Part shown: positions 42,425 through 59,905 of the stretch, piece by piece
Position numbering within the stretch: the first letter of the stretch is position 1
Layout: the number at the start of each line of letters is the position of its first letter
Origin: Clostridia bacterium
GTDB lineage: Bacteria; Bacillota; Clostridia; Oscillospirales; QAMX01
Assembly: GCA_017532825.1 (NCBI GenBank)
Contig: JAFXIT010000041.1
Span: 1-64,000, forward strand
DNA: 64,000 nucleotides
Direction: 5' to 3'
Notes under the pieces: generated by a model
The model's input: only the letters and a program-made list of their open reading frames with translations
Told to the model about the DNA's origin: nothing
Databases searched by the model: none
Position numbers and translations under genes: made by a program

Positions 42425-43149
42425 ATTATATCCTCCCTTTCAAAGACGGGGCCGTCCGAGCAGATGCGCCTTGCACCCGAGGTGGTGTGGCAGGTGCAGG
42501 TAAGGCAGGCGCCCATACCGCAGGCCATACGGCTCTCAAAACTGAGCTCGGCAGGAAGCTCGCTTGCCGAAAGTATCGCCTTGAGCATCGGCTCGGGTCC
42601 ACAGGCGTAGATGTAATCCCCGCCTGCTTCTCCCAGAAGTCCCGTAACAAAGCCCTTATGTCCAAACGAGCCATCCTCTGTGGCAACGTAAACGTCGCAG
42701 TATTTCCCAAGCTCGTCTGTCAGTATCACGTCGGATGCGTTTCTGAAGCCGAGAAGGGCTTTGGGACGGAGTCCTTTTTTGTAAAGCGCTTTTGCAAGCA
42801 GTACAAGCGGAGGTACTCCTACCCCTCCGCCGATAAGAAGCGGCGAGGAAATATTACGTTCTGTATTAAAACCGTTTCCAAGGCCGCTGACAACCGAGAC
42901 GGTATCCCCCGGGAGGTAGTTTGAAAGGCGCTCGGTACCGCCACCGACGGTGCGGTATACCACGGTAAGCTCGTCCCCTTCCACGTCGCAGACCGATATG
43001 GGGCGGCGAAGATAGAAGCCATCAACGGCAATATTTACGAACTGACCGGGTGCGGTCACGGCCGAGGTGTCGCCGGAAAGCAGGGTCTTATATATATCCG
43101 AAGTCAGCTTTTCGACACTTTTTACGGTAAAATTATCTATTCTTTTCAT
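42409..43149 (-). CDS. pyrK: Dihydroorotate dehydrogenase electron-transfer subunit
   Basis: 246 residues. FAD/NAD ferredoxin-reductase fold with FAD motif LRRPISVCD near 50 and NAD block LIGGGVGVPPL near 105, and a C-terminal 2Fe-2S cluster (CGMGACLTCTCHTT and a later C). Overlaps pyrC by 17 bp. Confidence 0.94.
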   Translation of the reverse strand: MKRIDNFTVKSVEKLTSDIYKTLLSGDTSAVTAPGQFVNIAVDGFYLRRPISVCDVEGDELTVVYRTVGGGTERLSNYLPGDTVSVVSGLGNGFNTERNISSPLLIGGGVGVPPLVLLAKALYKKGLRPKALLGFRNASDVILTDELGKYCDVYVATEDGSFGHKGFVTGLLGEAGGDYIYACGPEPMLKAILSASELPAELSFESRMACGMGACLTCTCHTTSGARRICSDGPVFEREDIIWTQR

Positions 43150-44320
43150 AAACTACCTCTTTTCCGTACACTGTGAGGATGGTCTCGCCCTTTAGCTCCA
43201 GCCCTGCAAAGGGTGTGCTTCTTCCCTTTGAAAGGAAGCATTCGGGGTCGACCGTAAAGGTATTGACGGTGTCAAACGCGGTGAAATTCGTCTTTTCACC
43301 GACCTTTATTTGGGCGGGCTCAAGGCCGAATATCCTTCTCGGCAGACGGCTCATACGCTCTGCGAGCATTTCCGGGGAATAACCGTTTGTATAAAGCAGG
43401 GCAAACGCCGTCTCAAGGCCGACGATACCGTTTACGCTTGCGGCATATCCGCCCGATTTTTCCTTGGCGGAATGAGGAGCGTGGTCGGTTGCGATGATAT
43501 CGAGGGTACCGTCCTCAAAGCCCCTTTTCACCGCCTCCATATCCTCGGGTGTACCAAGGGGGGGATTCATTTTGTAATCACCCGAATCCTTCCTGTCCTC
43601 GGTCGAAAGCAGGATATAGTGGGGTGCGGTCTCGGCGGTCACGGGAAGGCCTTCCGCCTTCGCTGCTCTTATCAGTTCAACGCTTTTTTTGCAGGAGATG
43701 TGGCAGGCGTGGTAGGGAGTGCGGTATTTCCTTACAAGCTCAAGGTCCCTTTCAAGGTACCGCCATTCGGCCTCGGGATGGGGATAGGCTTTATCCTCGC
43801 AATGGGATGCAACGAGCATACCGCTTTGCAATGCCGCCTCCATAAGCTCGGCGTTTACCCCGTCGCCGTCGTCGGAGATCGCACATACCCGTCCCTTTAA
43901 ATACCCGTAATCGGCAGGAAGGACTCCCTTCCTCCCCTTCGATATCGTACCTATGGGATAGATCTTTATCCTGCCCTCCCTTTCGATGGGGGCAAGGACC
44001 TCCTTGAGGGTATCCTCGCCGTCGGGGGCGGGAGAAAGGTTTGGCATGGTGCATACGGCGGTATAGCCGCCCTTTGCCGCAGCAAGAGAGCCGGTAGAGA
44101 CGGTCTCCTTATAAGAATACCCGGGCTCACGGAAATGAACGTGCACATCCGCCAGACCGGGTAACAATATACAGTTTCTCAAATCGTAAACGGCGTCATA
44201 TCCTTCGGAAGAAATATTACTCCCTATTTCGGTAATGACTCCGTCGGCATCGGCAATATCGCAATACTCGGTATATCCCTCAAAGCATACCGTCGCACCC
44301 TTGAAAAGTCGCTTTTTCAT
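43133..44320 (-). CDS. pyrC: Dihydroorotase
   Basis: 395 residues, class I type. Metal ligands in DVHVHFREPG (HxH near 59-61) and DHAPHS near 295; SHCEDKAYPH near 175. First gene of the pyr operon and preceded by a consensus promoter with about 35 bases of leader, too short for a PyrR attenuator. Confidence 0.94.
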   Translation of the reverse strand: MKKRLFKGATVCFEGYTEYCDIADADGVITEIGSNISSEGYDAVYDLRNCILLPGLADVHVHFREPGYSYKETVSTGSLAAAKGGYTAVCTMPNLSPAPDGEDTLKEVLAPIEREGRIKIYPIGTISKGRKGVLPADYGYLKGRVCAISDDGDGVNAELMEAALQSGMLVASHCEDKAYPHPEAEWRYLERDLELVRKYRTPYHACHISCKKSVELIRAAKAEGLPVTAETAPHYILLSTEDRKDSGDYKMNPPLGTPEDMEAVKRGFEDGTLDIIATDHAPHSAKEKSGGYAASVNGIVGLETAFALLYTNGYSPEMLAERMSRLPRRIFGLEPAQIKVGEKTNFTAFDTVNTFTVDPECFLSKGRSTPFAGLELKGETILTVYGKEVVYEKNR

Positions 44321-48267: not shown

Positions 48268-48990
48268 TTAAAGCACCTTCGAAAGGAAATCCTTAAGTCT
48301 GGGAGACTGCGGATTTGCAAAGAATTCATCGGGCGTATTCTGCTCGACGATGACACCCTCGTCCATAAACATTACTCTCGTGCCGACCTCTCTTGCAAAG
48401 CCCATCTCGTGGGTAACGACGACCATGGTCATGCCGTCGTCGGCAAGCTTTTTCATTACCTCAAGCACCTCTCCGACCATTTCGGGGTCAAGGGCGCTCG
48501 TAGGCTCGTCAAAGAGCATAACGTCGGGGTTCATGGCAAGAGCACGGACGATGGCGATGCGCTGCTTCTGTCCGCCCGAAAGCTGTGCGGGATAGCTCTG
48601 TGCCTTGTCGGCAAGATGGACCATCTCAAGCAGCCGCATGGCGTTTTCTTCTGCTTCCTTCTTACCGGCAACACCCAGCTTTACGGGAGCAAGGGTGATG
48701 TTTTTAAGGATGGTCAGGTGGGGAAAGAGGTTAAAGTGCTGAAAGACCATACCCATTCTCATACGCATACGGTTTATATTGGTCTTTCTGTCAAGCATAT
48801 CCACGCCGTCAAAGACTATCTCTCCGCCGGTAGGTGTCTCAAGGAGGTTTAGGCAGCGAAGGAAGGTGCTCTTACCAGAACCCGAAGGTCCGACGATGAC
48901 GACCTTTTCACCCTTATGGATGGTCTCGGTTATTCCCTTGAGCACGAGGTGATCTCCGAAGGCTTTTTCAAGATTTCTAACGTCTATCAC
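48268..48990 (-). CDS. Polar amino acid ABC transporter ATPase
   Basis: 240 residues from GTG 48990. AAAGGAGG precedes it and the ATG at 49011 lies before that site. Walker [10 protein letters not shown] near 38, Q-loop [18 protein letters not shown], Walker [15 protein letters not shown] and H-loop VVTHEMGF: the GlnQ/HisP subfamily. It overlaps the permease gene by 14 bp. Third gene of an importer for amino acids or amine-like solutes. Confidence 0.92.
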
Positions 48991-49702
48991 TCTTGCGAAG
49001 CCTCCTTTCAAGCTTGCCTACGAGGTAGGTAAGAAGCATAACTATCACCAGGTATATTGCCGCAACGGCAAGAAGCGGCAGGAAGGGCTCGTAGGTAAGG
49101 CTCTGGATGATATCGCCGCCCTTTGCAAGGTCGGGCAGGGCTATGTATCCGGCAATGGAGGTCTCCTTCAAAAGGGTTATAAACTCGTTTGCAAGGGCCG
49201 GCAGTACGTTTTTGAAGGCCTGGGGCATAACTATCCTCGCCATGGTGGAGGTATAGCTCAAGCCAAGGCTTCGGCCTGCCTCGGTCTGTCCCTTTTCTAC
49301 CGACATTATGCCCGAGCGCACTATCTCTGCGACGTAGGCACCCGAGTTTACTCCGAAGGCAATGATGGCGACCAAGAGCTTACTGATATCCACCGAGGCA
49401 AAGATGACGTAGTAGGTGATCATAAGCTGTATGACCGCAGGCGTGCCGCGGATGACGGTGAGGTAGACCCTGCAGATGGCGTTGAGTATCTTGAGTCTGC
49501 CCGTCTGCTCGTAGGTAGAGCGTATGATGGCAACGATAAAGCCCAGCACAATACCCAGCAATGCCGCAAAAACGGTTATCTTAAGGGTATTCATAAGACC
49601 GTCGGTGAGGTATCTCCAACGGTTGTCCTTTATGAAGTTGAGGACAAAATCGGCCTTAAGTCCGTTAAACCAATTTCCTATGCTTTGAAAAAATTCAGCC
49701 AT
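48977..49702 (-). CDS. Polar amino acid ABC transporter permease
   Basis: 241 residues, HisM/GlnP type, with about five helices and the cytoplasmic EAA loop ([24 protein letters not shown]). It extends the operon between the binding protein and ATPase genes. A 71-bp gap with a hairpin separates it from the binding-protein gene. Confidence 0.92.
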
Positions 49703-50765: not shown

Positions 50766-50810
50766 ATTATTCAATGAACAATAGTGTTTTTTCGACAGGA
50801 GATAATGCCA

Positions 50811-51683
50811 ATGAACGATTTTGTAATACTTACCGACTCCTGCTGCGATCTGCCCGCAGAGCTTGCAGGCAAGGAAGGCATCAGCGTCATCCCCCTCACC
50901 GTTACACTCGAGGGCAAGGAGTACCGCAATATGCTTGACGGCAGCGATATAGCCTCCGAGGATTTCTATGCAAGACTGAGAAACGGAGCTCTTGCCACCA
51001 CCTCTGCGGCAAGCGTTGGAATGTTCCAGGACGCTATGGAGCCCATACTCAAGGAGGGCAAGGACATCCTCTGCATTGCATTTTCATCAGGACTCAGCAG
51101 TACCTGCTCCTCGGCGCAGATCGCCGCAGGCGAGCTTTCGGAGCGTTATCCAGAGCAGAAGGTATACGTCGTAGACTCCCTTTGTGCCTCTCTGGGCCAG
51201 GGTCTGCTTGTATATCACGCCTGCCGTAAAAAGGAGTCGGGCGCATCTATAGAGGAGGTTAGAGACTGGCTCGAGGAAAACAAGCTCAGTCTCTGCCATT
51301 GGTTTACCGTTGACAGTCTCTCCCATCTGCGCAGAGGCGGGCGTCTCAGCTCGGCAAAGGCACTTCTGGGAAGCCTGCTCCACGTAAAGCCGGTGCTTCA
51401 CATGGACAATGACGGACACCTTATAAATATGGAAACGGTACGCGGAAGAAATACCGCCCTCAAAAGACTCACCGAAAAGATGGCAGAGCTTGCCACAGAC
51501 CCCCAAACCCAGACGGTATTTATCAGCCATGCGGACGATATCGAAGCCGCAGAGCTCGTCGCATCCGACGTAAGGGAGAGGTTTGGAATAAAGGACATAC
51601 TCATAAGCTCCATCGGACCGGTCATCGGCGCACACTGCGGTCCGGGCACGGTTGCGCTGTTTTTCCTCGGAAAAGAGCGTTAA
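50811..51683 (+). CDS. DegV family fatty-acid-binding protein
   Basis: 290 residues from ATG 50811 (ACAGGAGA at proper distance; an ATG six bases earlier is too close to it). Contains DegV blocks TDSCCDLPAEL at the N-terminus, TTSAASVGMF near 61, CIAFSSGLSSTC near 90, and HLRRGGRLSSAKALLG near 168. DegV/FakB proteins bind a fatty acid and present it to the kinase FakA; no fakA is adjacent. Separate transcription unit. Confidence 0.92.
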   Translation: MNDFVILTDSCCDLPAELAGKEGISVIPLTVTLEGKEYRNMLDGSDIASEDFYARLRNGALATTSAASVGMFQDAMEPILKEGKDILCIAFSSGLSSTCSSAQIAAGELSERYPEQKVYVVDSLCASLGQGLLVYHACRKKESGASIEEVRDWLEENKLSLCHWFTVDSLSHLRRGGRLSSAKALLGSLLHVKPVLHMDNDGHLINMETVRGRNTALKRLTEKMAELATDPQTQTVFISHADDIEAAELVASDVRERFGIKDILISSIGPVIGAHCGPGTVALFFLGKER

Positions 51684-51687
51684 GGTA

Positions 51688-51716
51688 TTGACATTTCTTC
51701 CAAAAGATGCTAATAT
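51688..51716 (+). promoter_or_regulatory. Promoter of the DUF1854/ABC operon leader
   Basis: TTGACA (51688-51693), 17 bp, TAATAT (51711-51716), about 210 bp before the transporter gene. Confidence 0.7.
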
Positions 51717-51755
51717 AGCATCATTAAAATTACAAAGAAAGGAGGCCGCCCAAAA

Positions 51756-51848
51756 ATGATCATAGTAAACGTTAAACTTTTTGCAAGCGATATGGGATCG
51801 GTCTGCCTTTCTGCAGACCGTCATACACGTTTGCCCATGGAGCGTTGA
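51756..51848 (+). CDS. Candidate 30-residue leader peptide
   Basis: ATG 51756 with AAAGGAGG ten bases upstream and TGA at 51846-51848. The product begins MIIVNVKLFASD. Codons 15-22 overlap a perfect 8-bp hairpin (51799-51820), and a perfect 10-bp terminator stem follows the stop codon by 25 bases. This layout matches attenuator leaders such as B. subtilis bmrB. Translation is unproven. Confidence 0.5.
   Translation: MIIVNVKLFASDMGSVCLSADRHTRLPMER
51799..51820 (+). promoter_or_regulatory. Leader hairpin
   Basis: CGGTCTGC (51799-51806), loop CTTTCT, GCAGACCG (51813-51820), inside the leader ORF; a ribosome paused or released here would change downstream folding. Confidence 0.6.
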
Positions 51849-51872
51849 CTGTCGGCTTTTTCTGTTTCTTCG

Positions 51873-51907
51873 ACGGGACACCTTCATGGTGTCCCGTTAT
51901 TTTTTTG
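51873..51907 (+). terminator. Leader terminator (attenuator) upstream of the ABC operon
   Basis: ACGGGACACC (51873-51882), loop TTCAT, GGTGTCCCGT (51888-51897), then TATTTTTTT. A perfect 10-bp stem with T run located before the operon's first structural gene; read-through would be needed for expression. Confidence 0.85.
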
Positions 51908-51927
51908 CTGTAAAGAAAGGAAATCCA

Positions 51928-54216
51928 ATGAACAAAAAAGGACAGCTCTCTCCGGCACTGCTTGAGCTGCTTGGCAGTGCCGGACTGGATACCTCCGAGC
52001 TTATCTGGTCGGTTACGTCGGATATGGACGATGAAGGATGTTACTGTACCGCCTGGATAACCTTCGACAAAAAAGGGCTCTACATTGCATTCGGAAGCGA
52101 GGAGACCGTCCCCGGCAGGCAGGGAAAAAAGGCGACAACAAAATACACTCTGCGCCAACTTCGCAGCTTCCCTGCCGACGAGGTCGGCAAGCTCAAGACC
52201 GAAAGCTACCTCACAACCGCCCGTCTCATCGGAGAAAAGGACGGAAACGAGGTCGCCTATACCTATTTTTCGGTAGGTCTTACCGAAAAGATAAACGACC
52301 TCATCAAGGTATGGGAAACCGTCCGCGAGGGCAAGGACCCCTCCGACGTTATAAAGAGCTTCCGCAAAAGCGACGTATGCCCCACCTGCGGGATGCGCTA
52401 CCCCGACCCCGATCGGGCGGTATGCCCCAAATGTGTCGACAAAAGCTCGACGGTAAAGCGGCTGTTTTCGTTTTTTAACGGCTACTGGGGCAAGGTCGCC
52501 ATTATCATTGCCACAATGCTGCTTGGCACGGCGGTCACCCTTCTTATGCCCCAGATCTCAACAAAAACGCTTTATGATAACGTCCTCAACGCAGGCAATC
52601 CAACGCCCGTCGATCAACTGATAGTATCCTTGGGATACCTCGTACTTGCCATAATCGGAGTAAAGCTCGCCTCCCAGCTTCTGCAGGTGTTTTATTCCTA
52701 CGTTACCGGTGCGATACTGCCCTGGGTCATCTACGACATAAAGCTTAAGATCTTCAACGCAATGCAGCGTATGTCGGTAGGCTTTTACACCGCAAAGCAG
52801 ACCGGCTCCCTTATGGAGCGGGTCACGAGCGACGCCAACAACATCTATTGGTTTATGCTTGACGGTATGTCCAGCCTCATAGTCCACGCCGCAACGATAA
52901 TCGGCATCCTCGTTATAATGTTTATAATGAGCTGGCAGCTGACCGTTATCGCACTTGTCAGCCTGCCGATAATACTGGGAGTATACGTTGCCCTTGAAAA
53001 CGTCTTTCACCGTCTCTACCATAAAAACTGGGCACGAAGCGCCTCCCTTTCGTCGATGGTCAGCGACAACGTCAACGGTCAGCGTGTTATCAAGGCATTC
53101 TCCAAGGAGGACGAGGAAAGCGGAAGGTTTGCCGATATAAGCGGAAAGCTCCGTGACTCCGACATAGAATGCTCCAACACAGAGGCCACCGCCTACCCTC
53201 TTATCTCACTGTTTGTATACATAGCCTCGACGGTCATTCTCGCCGTGGGCGGTATCATGGTGGTAAAGGGTCGGATGACCATCGGCACCCTGCTTACCTT
53301 CGTTATCTATCTCAATATGCTCCAAATGCCCCTCGATACCATTTCCTGGGTCTCAAGCTGGTGGGCAAGATGCTTTGACTCGGCACACAGAGTATTCGAG
53401 GTCATAGACACCGAGCCCGACGTCACCGAGCGTGAGGATCCCGTCATTCTTGAGAACTTCCGCGGAAGCATAGACATATCCGAGCTGGAGTTTGAGTACG
53501 AGCCTGCCCGCCCCGTAATAAAGAAGCTTGATCTTCATGTCAAGGCCGGTCAGATGCTCGGTATCGTCGGAAAGACCGGTGCGGGCAAATCGACCATCGC
53601 AAACCTCATTGCAAGGCTTTACGACCCCAAGGCGGGGGTGATAAAGATAGACGGTGTGGACGTTCGTGACCTTTCGCTCTCACAGTTAAGGGAGAACATC
53701 GGCCTCGTTTCGCAGGAGATATACCTCTTTATGGGTACCATTGCCGACAATATCCGTTACGCAAAGCCCGATGCGACTATGGAGGAGGTCATTGCCGCGG
53801 CAAAGGCGGCAAGCGCCCACGACTTTATAATGAAGCTTCCCGACACCTACGAGACAAGGGTCGGTGCAGGCGGGCAGGACCTTTCGGGCGGTGAGCGTCA
53901 GCGCATCTCCATTGCCCGTACCATCATACAAAACCCCCGCATCCTCATCCTCGACGAGGCAACTGCGGCCATGGATACCGAGACCGAGCGAAACATCCAG
54001 GAGTCTCTGACCGCCCTCAAGAGCGGCCGCACCACCCTCGCCATCGCCCACCGTCTGTCCACCCTCCGTGACGCCGACACCCTTGCGGTCATTGAGGACG
54101 GCAAGGTAGTGGAGTTTGGCACCTACACCGAGCTGATGTACAAAAAGGGCGAGTATTACAAGCTCTACCAGATGCAGGCCGAGGCGTTGAAATACGTCGG
54201 CATCGGCGAGGACTGA
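51928..54216 (+). CDS. ABC half-transporter with N-terminal zinc ribbon (first half)
   Basis: 762 residues from ATG 51928 (AAAGAAAGG upstream). Residues 1-140 form a non-membrane domain rich in beta-strands, then a zinc ribbon CPTCG...CPKC (about 150-168), six helices (about 175-460), and an ATPase domain with Walker A GKTGAGKST near 548, DLSGGERQR, Walker B ILILDEATAAMD and H-loop AHRLST. Type IV exporter-like half. The operon with a DUF1854 gene and a second half suggests a heterodimer. Substrate unknown. Confidence 0.88.
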   Translation: MNKKGQLSPALLELLGSAGLDTSELIWSVTSDMDDEGCYCTAWITFDKKGLYIAFGSEETVPGRQGKKATTKYTLRQLRSFPADEVGKLKTESYLTTARLIGEKDGNEVAYTYFSVGLTEKINDLIKVWETVREGKDPSDVIKSFRKSDVCPTCGMRYPDPDRAVCPKCVDKSSTVKRLFSFFNGYWGKVAIIIATMLLGTAVTLLMPQISTKTLYDNVLNAGNPTPVDQLIVSLGYLVLAIIGVKLASQLLQVFYSYVTGAILPWVIYDIKLKIFNAMQRMSVGFYTAKQTGSLMERVTSDANNIYWFMLDGMSSLIVHAATIIGILVIMFIMSWQLTVIALVSLPIILGVYVALENVFHRLYHKNWARSASLSSMVSDNVNGQRVIKAFSKEDEESGRFADISGKLRDSDIECSNTEATAYPLISLFVYIASTVILAVGGIMVVKGRMTIGTLLTFVIYLNMLQMPLDTISWVSSWWARCFDSAHRVFEVIDTEPDVTEREDPVILENFRGSIDISELEFEYEPARPVIKKLDLHVKAGQMLGIVGKTGAGKSTIANLIARLYDPKAGVIKIDGVDVRDLSLSQLRENIGLVSQEIYLFMGTIADNIRYAKPDATMEEVIAAAKAASAHDFIMKLPDTYETRVGAGGQDLSGGERQRISIARTIIQNPRILILDEATAAMDTETERNIQESLTALKSGRTTLAIAHRLSTLRDADTLAVIEDGKVVEFGTYTELMYKKGEYYKLYQMQAEALKYVGIGED

Positions 54217-54235: not shown

Positions 54236-54745
54236 ATGGAAAACAGCTTAAACACCGCAAGTATAGGTCTTCTTGACCCTGCAAAGATAGAATTTTATAC
54301 AAACCCCAACGGTTTTATTGCCATGAAAAACGGTAACGAGGACTTCAAGCGTGTCCGCCTTACCCGTGTTCTCCCCTTTTCGGAGCCCTTTTGCTATATC
54401 GCAGTGAGCGATACCGAGGGCAAGGAGATAGGCATCATAGCCGACCTGAGCGAGCTTTCCCAGGCACAGGCCGAGCTTGTAAAAAAGGAGCTTGACTCCA
54501 GATACTACTGCCCCACCGTTTCCTCCATTTCCGAGATAAAGGAAAAGATGGGATATTTCTACTTTGACGTTATGATCGGCTCCTACAGAAAGATATTTGC
54601 CGTGCGTGACATCTCCCGCAACATCAAGCAGCTTCAAAACGGTGCCATCATCATAACCGACGTAGACGGTAACCGCTTTCTCATCCCCGACATCCATGCG
54701 ATAGGCTCAAAGAGCCGCCGCAAGATCGAGCCCTATCTGTATTGA
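54236..54745 (+). CDS. DUF1854 family protein
   Basis: 169 residues. Typical DUF1854 outline: RLTRVLPFSEPFCYIAVSD..EGKEIGIIADLSELSQ, KKELDSRYYCPTVSSI and a late block ITDVDGNRFLIPDIHAIGSKSRR. The family's role is unknown; in other bacteria it also occurs next to ABC transporters, including cyanophycin-linked ones, which I recall. Situated exactly between the two ABC halves, separated by 19 and 14 bp, so it is probably an accessory subunit. Confidence 0.85.
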   Translation: MENSLNTASIGLLDPAKIEFYTNPNGFIAMKNGNEDFKRVRLTRVLPFSEPFCYIAVSDTEGKEIGIIADLSELSQAQAELVKKELDSRYYCPTVSSISEIKEKMGYFYFDVMIGSYRKIFAVRDISRNIKQLQNGAIIITDVDGNRFLIPDIHAIGSKSRRKIEPYLY

Positions 54746-54759
54746 GGAGGTATATAGCA

Positions 54760-56973
54760 TTGGAAACTCCCTCAAGCACGATCTCATACGATCTTAACGC
54801 TGCGGGCGAATTGATACAGGGTACTTTACGCTTTGAAAACGGCCGTATCTCCGTCTTTGAAGACGGAACGGAGGTCTTTTCCAGAGGAATTGAGGACGTA
54901 AGCGAGCTCTGTCAGTATTCCGATATCGGATGCGGACGGCTTGAGCTTTCGCTCAAGGACCCCTCCGACCCCGAAAAGGCTCTGCCGCAAAGCGAAAATA
55001 TATCCCTCTGCCGCTTCAGTATGAGTCATACCGAGGAGGCGGGCGAGATGTGCAAGGTGGTAAACTACTACCTCCGCAACGGCACCCACAGCGTTATCGA
55101 CTCCTCTGTCAGACTCTGCTGTGAAAAATGCGGCAGACCGCTGATGAAGGGTACCGACGTCTGTCTTTTCTGCCTTGACAAGGGCTACATACTCAAAAGA
55201 AGTCTCCAGCTTATGAAGCCCTTTCTTCCGAAAGTAGCACTCGTAGCAGCCTTTGCGCTGATATCAAATCTTCTTTTTGCCCTCAGACCGGTGATAAACG
55301 CCCGTCTGACCGACGGCTATCTCTCCCCTGCCCAGGGTGTCACCCCCGCATTTTCCCCGATAACGGGCGTTCTTGTGCTGACGGGGCTTATGATAGCGGT
55401 ATACGCCTTAGGGCAGACTATCGGAATAATCGGCCAGCGGATGGCAAACCGTGTGGGCTCGCATTTTTCCGACCAACTGCGGCGGACCGTCTACGACAAG
55501 ATCCAGCGTCTGTCGTTGGCGTCGATGGCGAAGCGTCCCGGAGGAGACCTTATAAAGCGTATCACCCGTGACACCCAGACCGTCCGCTCCTTTTTGACCG
55601 ACCAGGGCGTATACGCCCTTGAAAGTCTTTTTATGTTCACCGTTATCTTCGTGATACTTCTCTTTACCAGTCCCTTCCTTACCCTGCTGGTATTCATCCC
55701 TGTACCGCTGGTATTACTGATAATGAGCAGGTTCTGGAAGCACATTCGCCTCCGCTACGACAAGCAATGGCGTCAGGAATCAAGGTCTACCTCGATACTT
55801 CACGACATCATCAAGGGCATACGTGTGGTAAAGACCTTCGGAAACGAGGCCCGTGAGATAAAGAAGTTCGCCTCCGCAAACGAAAGTCTCGCCAAAGTAT
55901 CGGCCTCCAACGAAAAGCTGTGGGCCGTGACCTTCCCCTTCCTCGGATTTTTCATCGGCATCGGTGAATTTTTGGTGCTCTTCTTTGGCGGACGGATGGT
56001 CCTTGAGGGTACCATCACGCTCGGACAGCTGATGCAGTTTGTGCTGTTTTTGGGGTATATCTACACCCCCCTGCGCTGGCTGACGTCGGTTCCCCGCTGG
56101 CTTGCAAACTTCATGACCAGTATGGTCAAGATCCTCGAGATCATCGACGAAAAGCCCGACATAGCCGACGCCTCCGAGCCCGTCGAGCCCGAGATAAAGG
56201 GTGGGGTCAGCTTTGAAAACGTCACCTTCGGGTATAAATCCTATGAGCCGGTCCTGCGTGATGTATCCCTTGACATCCGCCCCGGCGAGATGATAGGTCT
56301 TGTGGGACACTCGGGTGCGGGAAAGTCGACCATGATAAACCTTATCATGCGTCTTTACGACCCCGGTGCGGGGCGGGTCTGTCTTGACGGCACCGACCTT
56401 CGCAAGCTCACCCAAAAGCATCTTCACGACAGCATAGGCGTCGTTTTCCAGGACACCTTCCTCTTTACCGGTTCTATCTACGACAACATCACCTACGCCC
56501 GTACCGATGCGACCTCTGCAGAGGTCATAGCTGCGGCAAAGGCGGCAAACGCACATGAATTTATCATGCGCCTGCCCGACTCCTACAACACCCTCATCGG
56601 CGAGAACGGCCACGATCTCTCGGGCGGTGAGCGTCAGCGCATAGCCATTGCAAGGGCGATACTGAAGGACCCCAAGCTCCTCATCCTCGACGAGGCGACA
56701 AGCTCGCTTGACCCCGAGACCGAGATAAAGATCCAGGAGGCGCTTGCACGTCTTACCAAGGATCGCACTACCATCGCCATTGCCCACCGTCTGTCCACCC
56801 TCCGCAATGCCGACAGACTCGTCGTGCTTGACAAGGGTCGCATTGCAGAGGTAGGCACCCACCGTGAGCTTTTGGAGAAAAAGGGCATCTACTACCGCCT
56901 TGTTATGGCACAAAAGCAGACCAACAAGCTCCGTGGCGAGGCCGCAAAGGCTTATGCCGAGGCAAATGGCTAA
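54760..56973 (+). CDS. ABC half-transporter with N-terminal zinc ribbon (second half)
   Basis: 737 residues from TTG 54760, chosen for the GAGGAGG at nine bases; the TTG at 54742 lies within that site. An N-terminal beta-rich region of about 120 residues and zinc ribbon CEKCG...CLFC (about 125-143), six helices, and an ATPase domain with GHSGAGKST, LSGGERQR, LLILDEATSSLD and AHRLST. Both ATP sites of the pair look complete. Same architecture as the first half, so a heterodimer is likely. Confidence 0.87.
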   Translation: METPSSTISYDLNAAGELIQGTLRFENGRISVFEDGTEVFSRGIEDVSELCQYSDIGCGRLELSLKDPSDPEKALPQSENISLCRFSMSHTEEAGEMCKVVNYYLRNGTHSVIDSSVRLCCEKCGRPLMKGTDVCLFCLDKGYILKRSLQLMKPFLPKVALVAAFALISNLLFALRPVINARLTDGYLSPAQGVTPAFSPITGVLVLTGLMIAVYALGQTIGIIGQRMANRVGSHFSDQLRRTVYDKIQRLSLASMAKRPGGDLIKRITRDTQTVRSFLTDQGVYALESLFMFTVIFVILLFTSPFLTLLVFIPVPLVLLIMSRFWKHIRLRYDKQWRQESRSTSILHDIIKGIRVVKTFGNEAREIKKFASANESLAKVSASNEKLWAVTFPFLGFFIGIGEFLVLFFGGRMVLEGTITLGQLMQFVLFLGYIYTPLRWLTSVPRWLANFMTSMVKILEIIDEKPDIADASEPVEPEIKGGVSFENVTFGYKSYEPVLRDVSLDIRPGEMIGLVGHSGAGKSTMINLIMRLYDPGAGRVCLDGTDLRKLTQKHLHDSIGVVFQDTFLFTGSIYDNITYARTDATSAEVIAAAKAANAHEFIMRLPDSYNTLIGENGHDLSGGERQRIAIARAILKDPKLLILDEATSSLDPETEIKIQEALARLTKDRTTIAIAHRLSTLRNADRLVVLDKGRIAEVGTHRELLEKKGIYYRLVMAQKQTNKLRGEAAKAYAEANG

Positions 56974-57274: not shown

Positions 57275-59905
<2,631 letters not shown>

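Follow-up and report, generated by a model that had tools for sequence, protein, structure and literature searches.

The locus described here raises the question of whether a short region in front of an ABC exporter operon couples transcription of that operon to translation of a small leader ORF and, if it does, what the switch would sense. The operon lies in the window, by which we mean the whole stretch of 64,000 nucleotides analysed, from a gut-type Clostridia bacterium known only as sequence, and has the gene order ABC1-DUF1854-ABC2, with an attenuator-like leader directly upstream of ABC1. An earlier note had proposed an attenuator of the bmrB type at this position and, from it, antibiotic-inducible expression of the transporter pair. 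Among 5.39 million open papers searched, none names DUF1854, and we found none on the substrate or the regulation of DUF1854-linked ABC pairs. A leader reporting translation status, on both paralogous operons of the family, would be a handle on an uncharacterised transporter, and the cause of the terminator's leak would tell when, and perhaps against what, that transporter is needed. We consider it rather probable, judging from sequence comparison and predicted folds, that positions 51688-51906 are a translation-coupled transcription attenuator of the ABC1-DUF1854-ABC2 operon. The features are as follows.

50784-51683, same strand as the ABC operon: DegV-family gene, the directly upstream neighbour of the leader
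51684-51927: leader region between the DegV gene and ABC1
51688-51716, + strand: sigma-A-type promoter TTGACA-17-TAATAT, with TG before the -10 and 10/12 matches
51706-51722, no strand: 17-bp inverted repeat GATGCTAATATAGCATC over the -10, read directly from the sequence
51738-51745, + strand: ribosome-binding site AAAGGAGG, 10 nt before the leader ATG
51756-51848, + strand: leader ORF of 30 codons, MIIVNVKLFASDMGSVCLSADRHTRLPMER, from ATG at 51756 to TGA at 51846-51848
51799-51820, + strand: 8-bp hairpin inside the leader ORF, arms CGGTCTGC and GCAGACCG, seen in the predicted fold
51838-51855, + strand: candidate 5' arm of an antiterminator, extending over the final codons and the stop codon and pairing with 51870-51886
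51870-51886, + strand: candidate antiterminator 3' arm, overlapping the terminator 5' arm and loop
51872-51906, + strand: intrinsic terminator, 11-pair stem at 51872-51898, 5-nt loop TTCAT, tail ATTTTTTT
51928-54216, + strand: ABC1, an ABC exporter subunit with an N-terminal extension of about 185 aa carrying a CxxC...CxxC element
54236-54745, + strand: DUF1854 protein (PF08909), between ABC1 and ABC2
54742-56973, + strand: ABC2, the second ABC exporter subunit, also with an N-terminal extension

Promoter, ORF, hairpin and terminator do stand in that order before ABC1, and all four parts that the earlier note had named were confirmed. Promoter sites of comparable quality number 2 in 1.4 kb, against 0.9 ± 0.8 expected, and the inverted repeat over the -10 is a possible operator. 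The ribosome-binding site had been called strong, and AAAGGAGG with an ATG 4-12 nt further on occurs only 3 times on both strands of the 64-kb window, one of these sites being the leader ORF and another starting a 268-aa ORF. The terminator had been described as a perfect 10-bp stem with a T run; it has 10 perfect pairs (51873-51882 with 51888-51897) and one G-T pair besides, with a folding energy of -20.6 kcal/mol. The fold of the whole leader RNA reaches -69 kcal/mol, compared with -47.3 ± 4.1 kcal/mol for its shuffles (z -5.25).

The background was drawn from the window itself and from operons elsewhere in the order. Of the 53 other called genes in the window, 6 have a strong terminator within 110 nt upstream of the start codon, so a terminator alone is weak evidence of regulation; for this reason a comparison with relatives was needed, and it is conservation there that makes the case. 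The same frequency speaks for an alternative in which the hairpin would be the ordinary end of the DegV transcript and the ORF a product of chance, with the ABC operon unregulated; the DegV gene, whose last base is 51683, does share the strand. Against this stand the consensus promoter that lies between DegV and the terminator, and the recurrence of promoter, ORF and terminator in relatives behind other upstream sequences, and we hold this alternative to be very improbable.

For the comparison, 118 genomes were searched with ABC1 and 396 with the DUF1854 family, which yielded 120 operons, 115 of them with an ABC1 start. A terminator was counted when its hairpin had -14 kcal/mol or better and a T-rich tail, and when it ended 10-100 nt before ABC1. 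Such a terminator is present in 9/12 operons when the window's family is taken together with one sister family, f2, versus 5/104 elsewhere in the order (Fisher P 5e-8), and in 7/9 of the window's own family alone (P 7e-7). An ATG ORF 16-45 codons long and preceded by a ribosome-binding site was found in 7 of 10 leaders, where dinucleotide shuffles lead one to expect 0.51 (P 3e-8), an excess of about 14-fold, with the reservation that the seven ORF-bearing leaders are not all independent because those of f2 are related to one another. The other attenuated leaders also have a legible TTGAC(A/T)-TATAAT-like promoter upstream, as judged for all but the G001 orthologue, whose promoter region lies beyond the sequence span read. 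On these counts the leader ORF plus terminator is, at the level of sequence, a lineage feature of the window's family and f2. The interpretation put forward by the earlier note stood in part, since the layout recurs on orthologous and paralogous operons and in f2, with an excess of ORFs, whereas its analogy to bmrB found no support; likewise, the comparison of leader ORFs across relatives that it had suggested bore out the layout and the ORF but not the peptide, which is not conserved, and one relative, G009, has no ORF.

Individual relatives show how variable the region is. Orthologous operons occur in genomes G001, G009, G010 and G014, with an ABC1 63-66% identical to that of the window, and a second, paralogous DUF1854 operon, with an ABC1 46-49% identical, occurs in the window's own genome (G000) and in G001, G009 and G010. 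The G001 orthologue has its terminators about 220-270 nt upstream of the gene, the G010 orthologue has no terminator, and the G009 orthologue has promoter and terminator, with no more than some 55 nt of leader ahead of the latter. A DNA search with the window's leader in 21 genomes of the family, 20 of them other than its own, gave no relative beyond short chance matches. Evidently, as far as sequence comparison goes, the terminator stays while the sensing part is often replaced in this lineage. This agrees with the picture of the ABC-leaders in those parts of Naville and Gautheret (PMC2965389) that we draw upon, where in absolute terms no other family has more predicted attenuators, one of them before a multidrug export operon in lactobacilli. 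There, too, premature terminators are predicted before ABC operons and the sensing parts are diverse and unrelated; these sensing parts are mostly undefined, however, and the examples given in those parts include no DUF1854-linked operon.

In the second operons of G000 and G001 the leaders are long and lack an ATG ORF. Their leaders (L130, in G000:C6, and L132, in G001:C10) consist of a promoter, about 165-220 nt of leader and a strong terminator, and both have a motif resembling a ribosome-binding site 7 nt before an ATA (GGGAGGAACATTCATAG and AAGGAGATCAATCATAG, respectively), which is perhaps a non-standard start codon.

In f2, three species (leaders L134 of G095, L136 of G179 and L247 of G063) have leader ORFs of 19, 20 and 20 codons, that of G063 starting with GTG, which encode unrelated peptides and each end at the edge of a 63-nt block. 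Within this block a 34-nt stretch (GACCGGCGCTGTTGCCGGAGACTTGCCGCGATTT) is invariant in all three species. The ABC1 genes of G095 and G179 reach just 79% DNA identity, so conservation is higher in the block than in coding sequence. Downstream of the ORF the block contains GACCGGC, the putative antiterminator segment, also invariant in the three species and complementary to the terminator arm, which is predicted either to sit in a local hairpin or to pair with the downstream terminator arm. A DNA search for the block in 394 genomes of the order gave the three f2 genomes clearly and the rest at chance level, and the block has no match in Rfam. Judged by this pattern of conservation, the f2 block is the clearest evidence of a working switch in the lineage. 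We would also offer, as a conjecture that we think doubtful but worth stating, that this transporter operon keeps swapping its sensing parts, from unrelated ORFs to an ORF-less leader to the nearly invariant 63-nt RNA of f2, and that the f2 block may represent a structured regulatory RNA of a new class, with its state set by the ribosome finishing the preceding ORF or by a ligand.

These cases bear on an alternative in which the ORF is irrelevant and the attenuator is either constitutive, holding the operon at a low basal level, or controlled by a protein or ligand that binds the leader RNA. The ORF-less G009 leader, the paralogous leaders of G000 and G001 without an ATG ORF and the f2 block, conserved independently of peptide sequence, all speak for it, but the roughly fourteenfold excess of short ORFs with ribosome-binding sites speaks against it. 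Nor does it gain from known RNA classes, as Rfam covariance models run on the window, its leader and nine related leaders gave nothing credible for T-boxes, riboswitches or other cis-elements. We consider an ORF-independent attenuator unlikely, and return to translation coupling as the preferred reading.

In a translation-coupled attenuator of this kind, RNA polymerase would start just downstream of 51716 and transcribe the short ORF. A ribosome that arrives quickly at the stop codon would cover 51838-51855 and so prevent its hairpin with 51870-51886, and with this antiterminator blocked, the 11-bp terminator would form and transcription would end near 51906. A late ribosome, or one stalled further upstream, would leave time for the antiterminator to form ahead of synthesis of the terminator 3' arm, allowing read-through into ABC1.

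Several folding results bear on this scheme. Segment 51838-51855 is the best pairing partner of the terminator 5' arm in the window's leader, with a hairpin of -11.8 kcal/mol. Candidate antiterminators that would sequester the terminator 5' arm give a modest signal, with a combined P of 0.009 over ten leaders, and of 0.048 in the window's family alone. The signal is strongest in G014 and f2; in G014 the predicted partner of the terminator arm lies within the ORF, and this duplex, at -29.8 kcal/mol, is stronger than the terminator hairpin at -27.9 kcal/mol. In equilibrium folding with the full terminator, the terminator wins at every ribosome position of the window's leader, so the switch must be kinetic, and since masked equilibrium folds always give the terminator, only folding of the nascent RNA is informative. 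This was modelled with an RNA ending at 51887, before the terminator 3' arm emerges, and with 31 nt masked around the ribosome. With the P site at codons 22-26 the predicted antiterminator probability is 0.67-0.91, and at codons 28-31 it falls to about 0; elsewhere it is 0.9 at codons 1-2, intermediate at 3-8 and low at 9-21, the last of which counts against the scheme. The values at the late codons are the classical attenuator arithmetic, in which a finished ORF gives termination and a lagging ribosome gives read-through. Because the window's own duplex does not stand out from its shuffles (P 0.215) and loses to the terminator at equilibrium, we infer the antiterminator step in this genome, as we do the direction of the switch and its signal; promoter, ORF and terminator, and the fact that they recur together in the lineage, are shown by sequence comparison.

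As to the signal, the leader peptides of relatives resemble one another no more than shuffled peptides do. Those of G000 and G001 give P 0.07 in the same register and 0.47 in free register, other pairs being no better, and the pattern S19-x-D21-R22-x-x-R25 common to these two is not significant. Among the leaders we found neither a conserved cluster of codons for one amino acid nor a run of one codon. Given that the position of the ORF is kept and its amino-acid sequence is not, the signal would most likely be a slowing of translation in general, and slowed translation probably turns the transporter on, so far as predicted folds and comparison can tell, with ribosome-targeting antibiotics as one possible cause of the slowing. 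A general signal of this sort fits the toiL uORF of E. coli topAI, a general stalled-ribosome sensor that needs no special arrest peptide (PMC12121999), and in part bmrB (PMC4191407). Unlike the window's leader with its intrinsic terminator, toiL acts on translation with Rho-dependent termination (PMC12121999).

The transporters match general ABC exporters, and the DUF1854 protein has a confident AlphaFold model (pLDDT 89), mostly beta, for which a comparison with solved structures gave no significant match. The best NCBIfam models are NF052233 and NF052234, of the cyanophycin-associated ABC and DUF1854 families, all below cut-off: the ABC model scores 526 and 536 bits against a cut-off of 880, and the DUF1854 model 66.9 against 150. 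Membership in the cyanophycin-associated DUF1854/ABC system was considered and rejected on these scores and because no TIGR02068 match over the cut-off, that is, no cyanophycin synthetase, was found in the genome. Among the drug-pump NCBIfam models none reached its cut-off, Tet(46) and SmdAB falling far below theirs. Heterodimeric drug exporters, BmrCD among them, typically have a degenerate nucleotide-binding site; both ABC proteins here keep Walker A, LSGGERQR and the Walker B Glu intact, so both sites look canonical and the degenerate site of such exporters seems to be lacking.

The leader of bmrCD resembles that of the window in its promoter, short ORF, intrinsic terminator with predicted antiterminator, and two-gene ABC exporter operon. 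It differs in that bmrB of Bacillus subtilis, for which drug induction has been shown, has about 54 codons with the terminator inside the coding region (PMC4191407), whereas the window's terminator lies outside the ORF, starting 24 nt after the stop codon (stem at 51872, stop ending at 51848); and the operon here, unlike that of the multidrug transporter BmrCD, has a DUF1854 protein between ABC genes with N-terminal extensions. The bmrB/BmrCD analogy of the earlier note is therefore not supported, given the terminator position, the drug-pump models and the canonical look of the ATPase sites. Its claim of antibiotic-inducible expression was left unsupported as well, there being no drug-pump family, no recognisable drug-arrest peptide (because the leader peptide is not conserved) and an orthologue, in G009, without any ORF. 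Antibiotics as the signal are possible but not indicated, and antibiotic induction should not be concluded merely from a short ORF that precedes a terminator. The specific alternative of a bmrB-BmrCD type, in which a drug-stalled ribosome would switch on a drug exporter, has in its favour the order of parts, the ABC exporter operon downstream and the finding that a uORF needs no special peptide to sense several drug classes (PMC12121999); set against the family scores, the intact LSGGE and Walker motifs, the external terminator and the lack of a conserved arrest peptide, it appears unlikely to us.

Cyanophycin is an Asp-Arg polymer, and this, together with the Arg codons 22 and 25 at the model's stall site, is why an amino-acid-sensing variant was considered, with arginine as the best candidate; a shortage of charged tRNA would stall the ribosome at these two codons and cause read-through. 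Arg22, Arg25 and Asp21 do occupy the same codons in G000 and G001, the G014 peptide has RARTR near its end, the modelled antiterminator probability is high at codons 22-26, and the nearest protein families are cyanophycin-associated. Yet Arg accounts for 10% of residues in the eight leaders counted, where base composition alone would give 8%, two paralogous operons have leaders without Arg, the shared register has the P values given above, and the genome has no cyanophycin synthetase over the cut-off. The trp/his leader-peptide attenuators share with this leader a short ORF, alternative hairpins and a terminator, but the window's leader has no run of regulatory codons and its peptide is not conserved. 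We regard arginine sensing as improbable, and general slowing of translation as the preferred signal.

Other strong hairpins occur in the window. Before alaS (57275-59905, + strand) one of -28.5 kcal/mol with a T-rich tail lies at -63 to -26 from the start codon; it is probably the terminator of the ABC operon, and Rfam finds no T-box before alaS. On the minus strand, the gene at 43133-44320, at the start of an apparent pyrimidine operon, has a strong terminator hairpin 78-101 nt upstream, and the gene at 48977-49702 has one 24-53 nt upstream, between a solute-binding protein and its permease.
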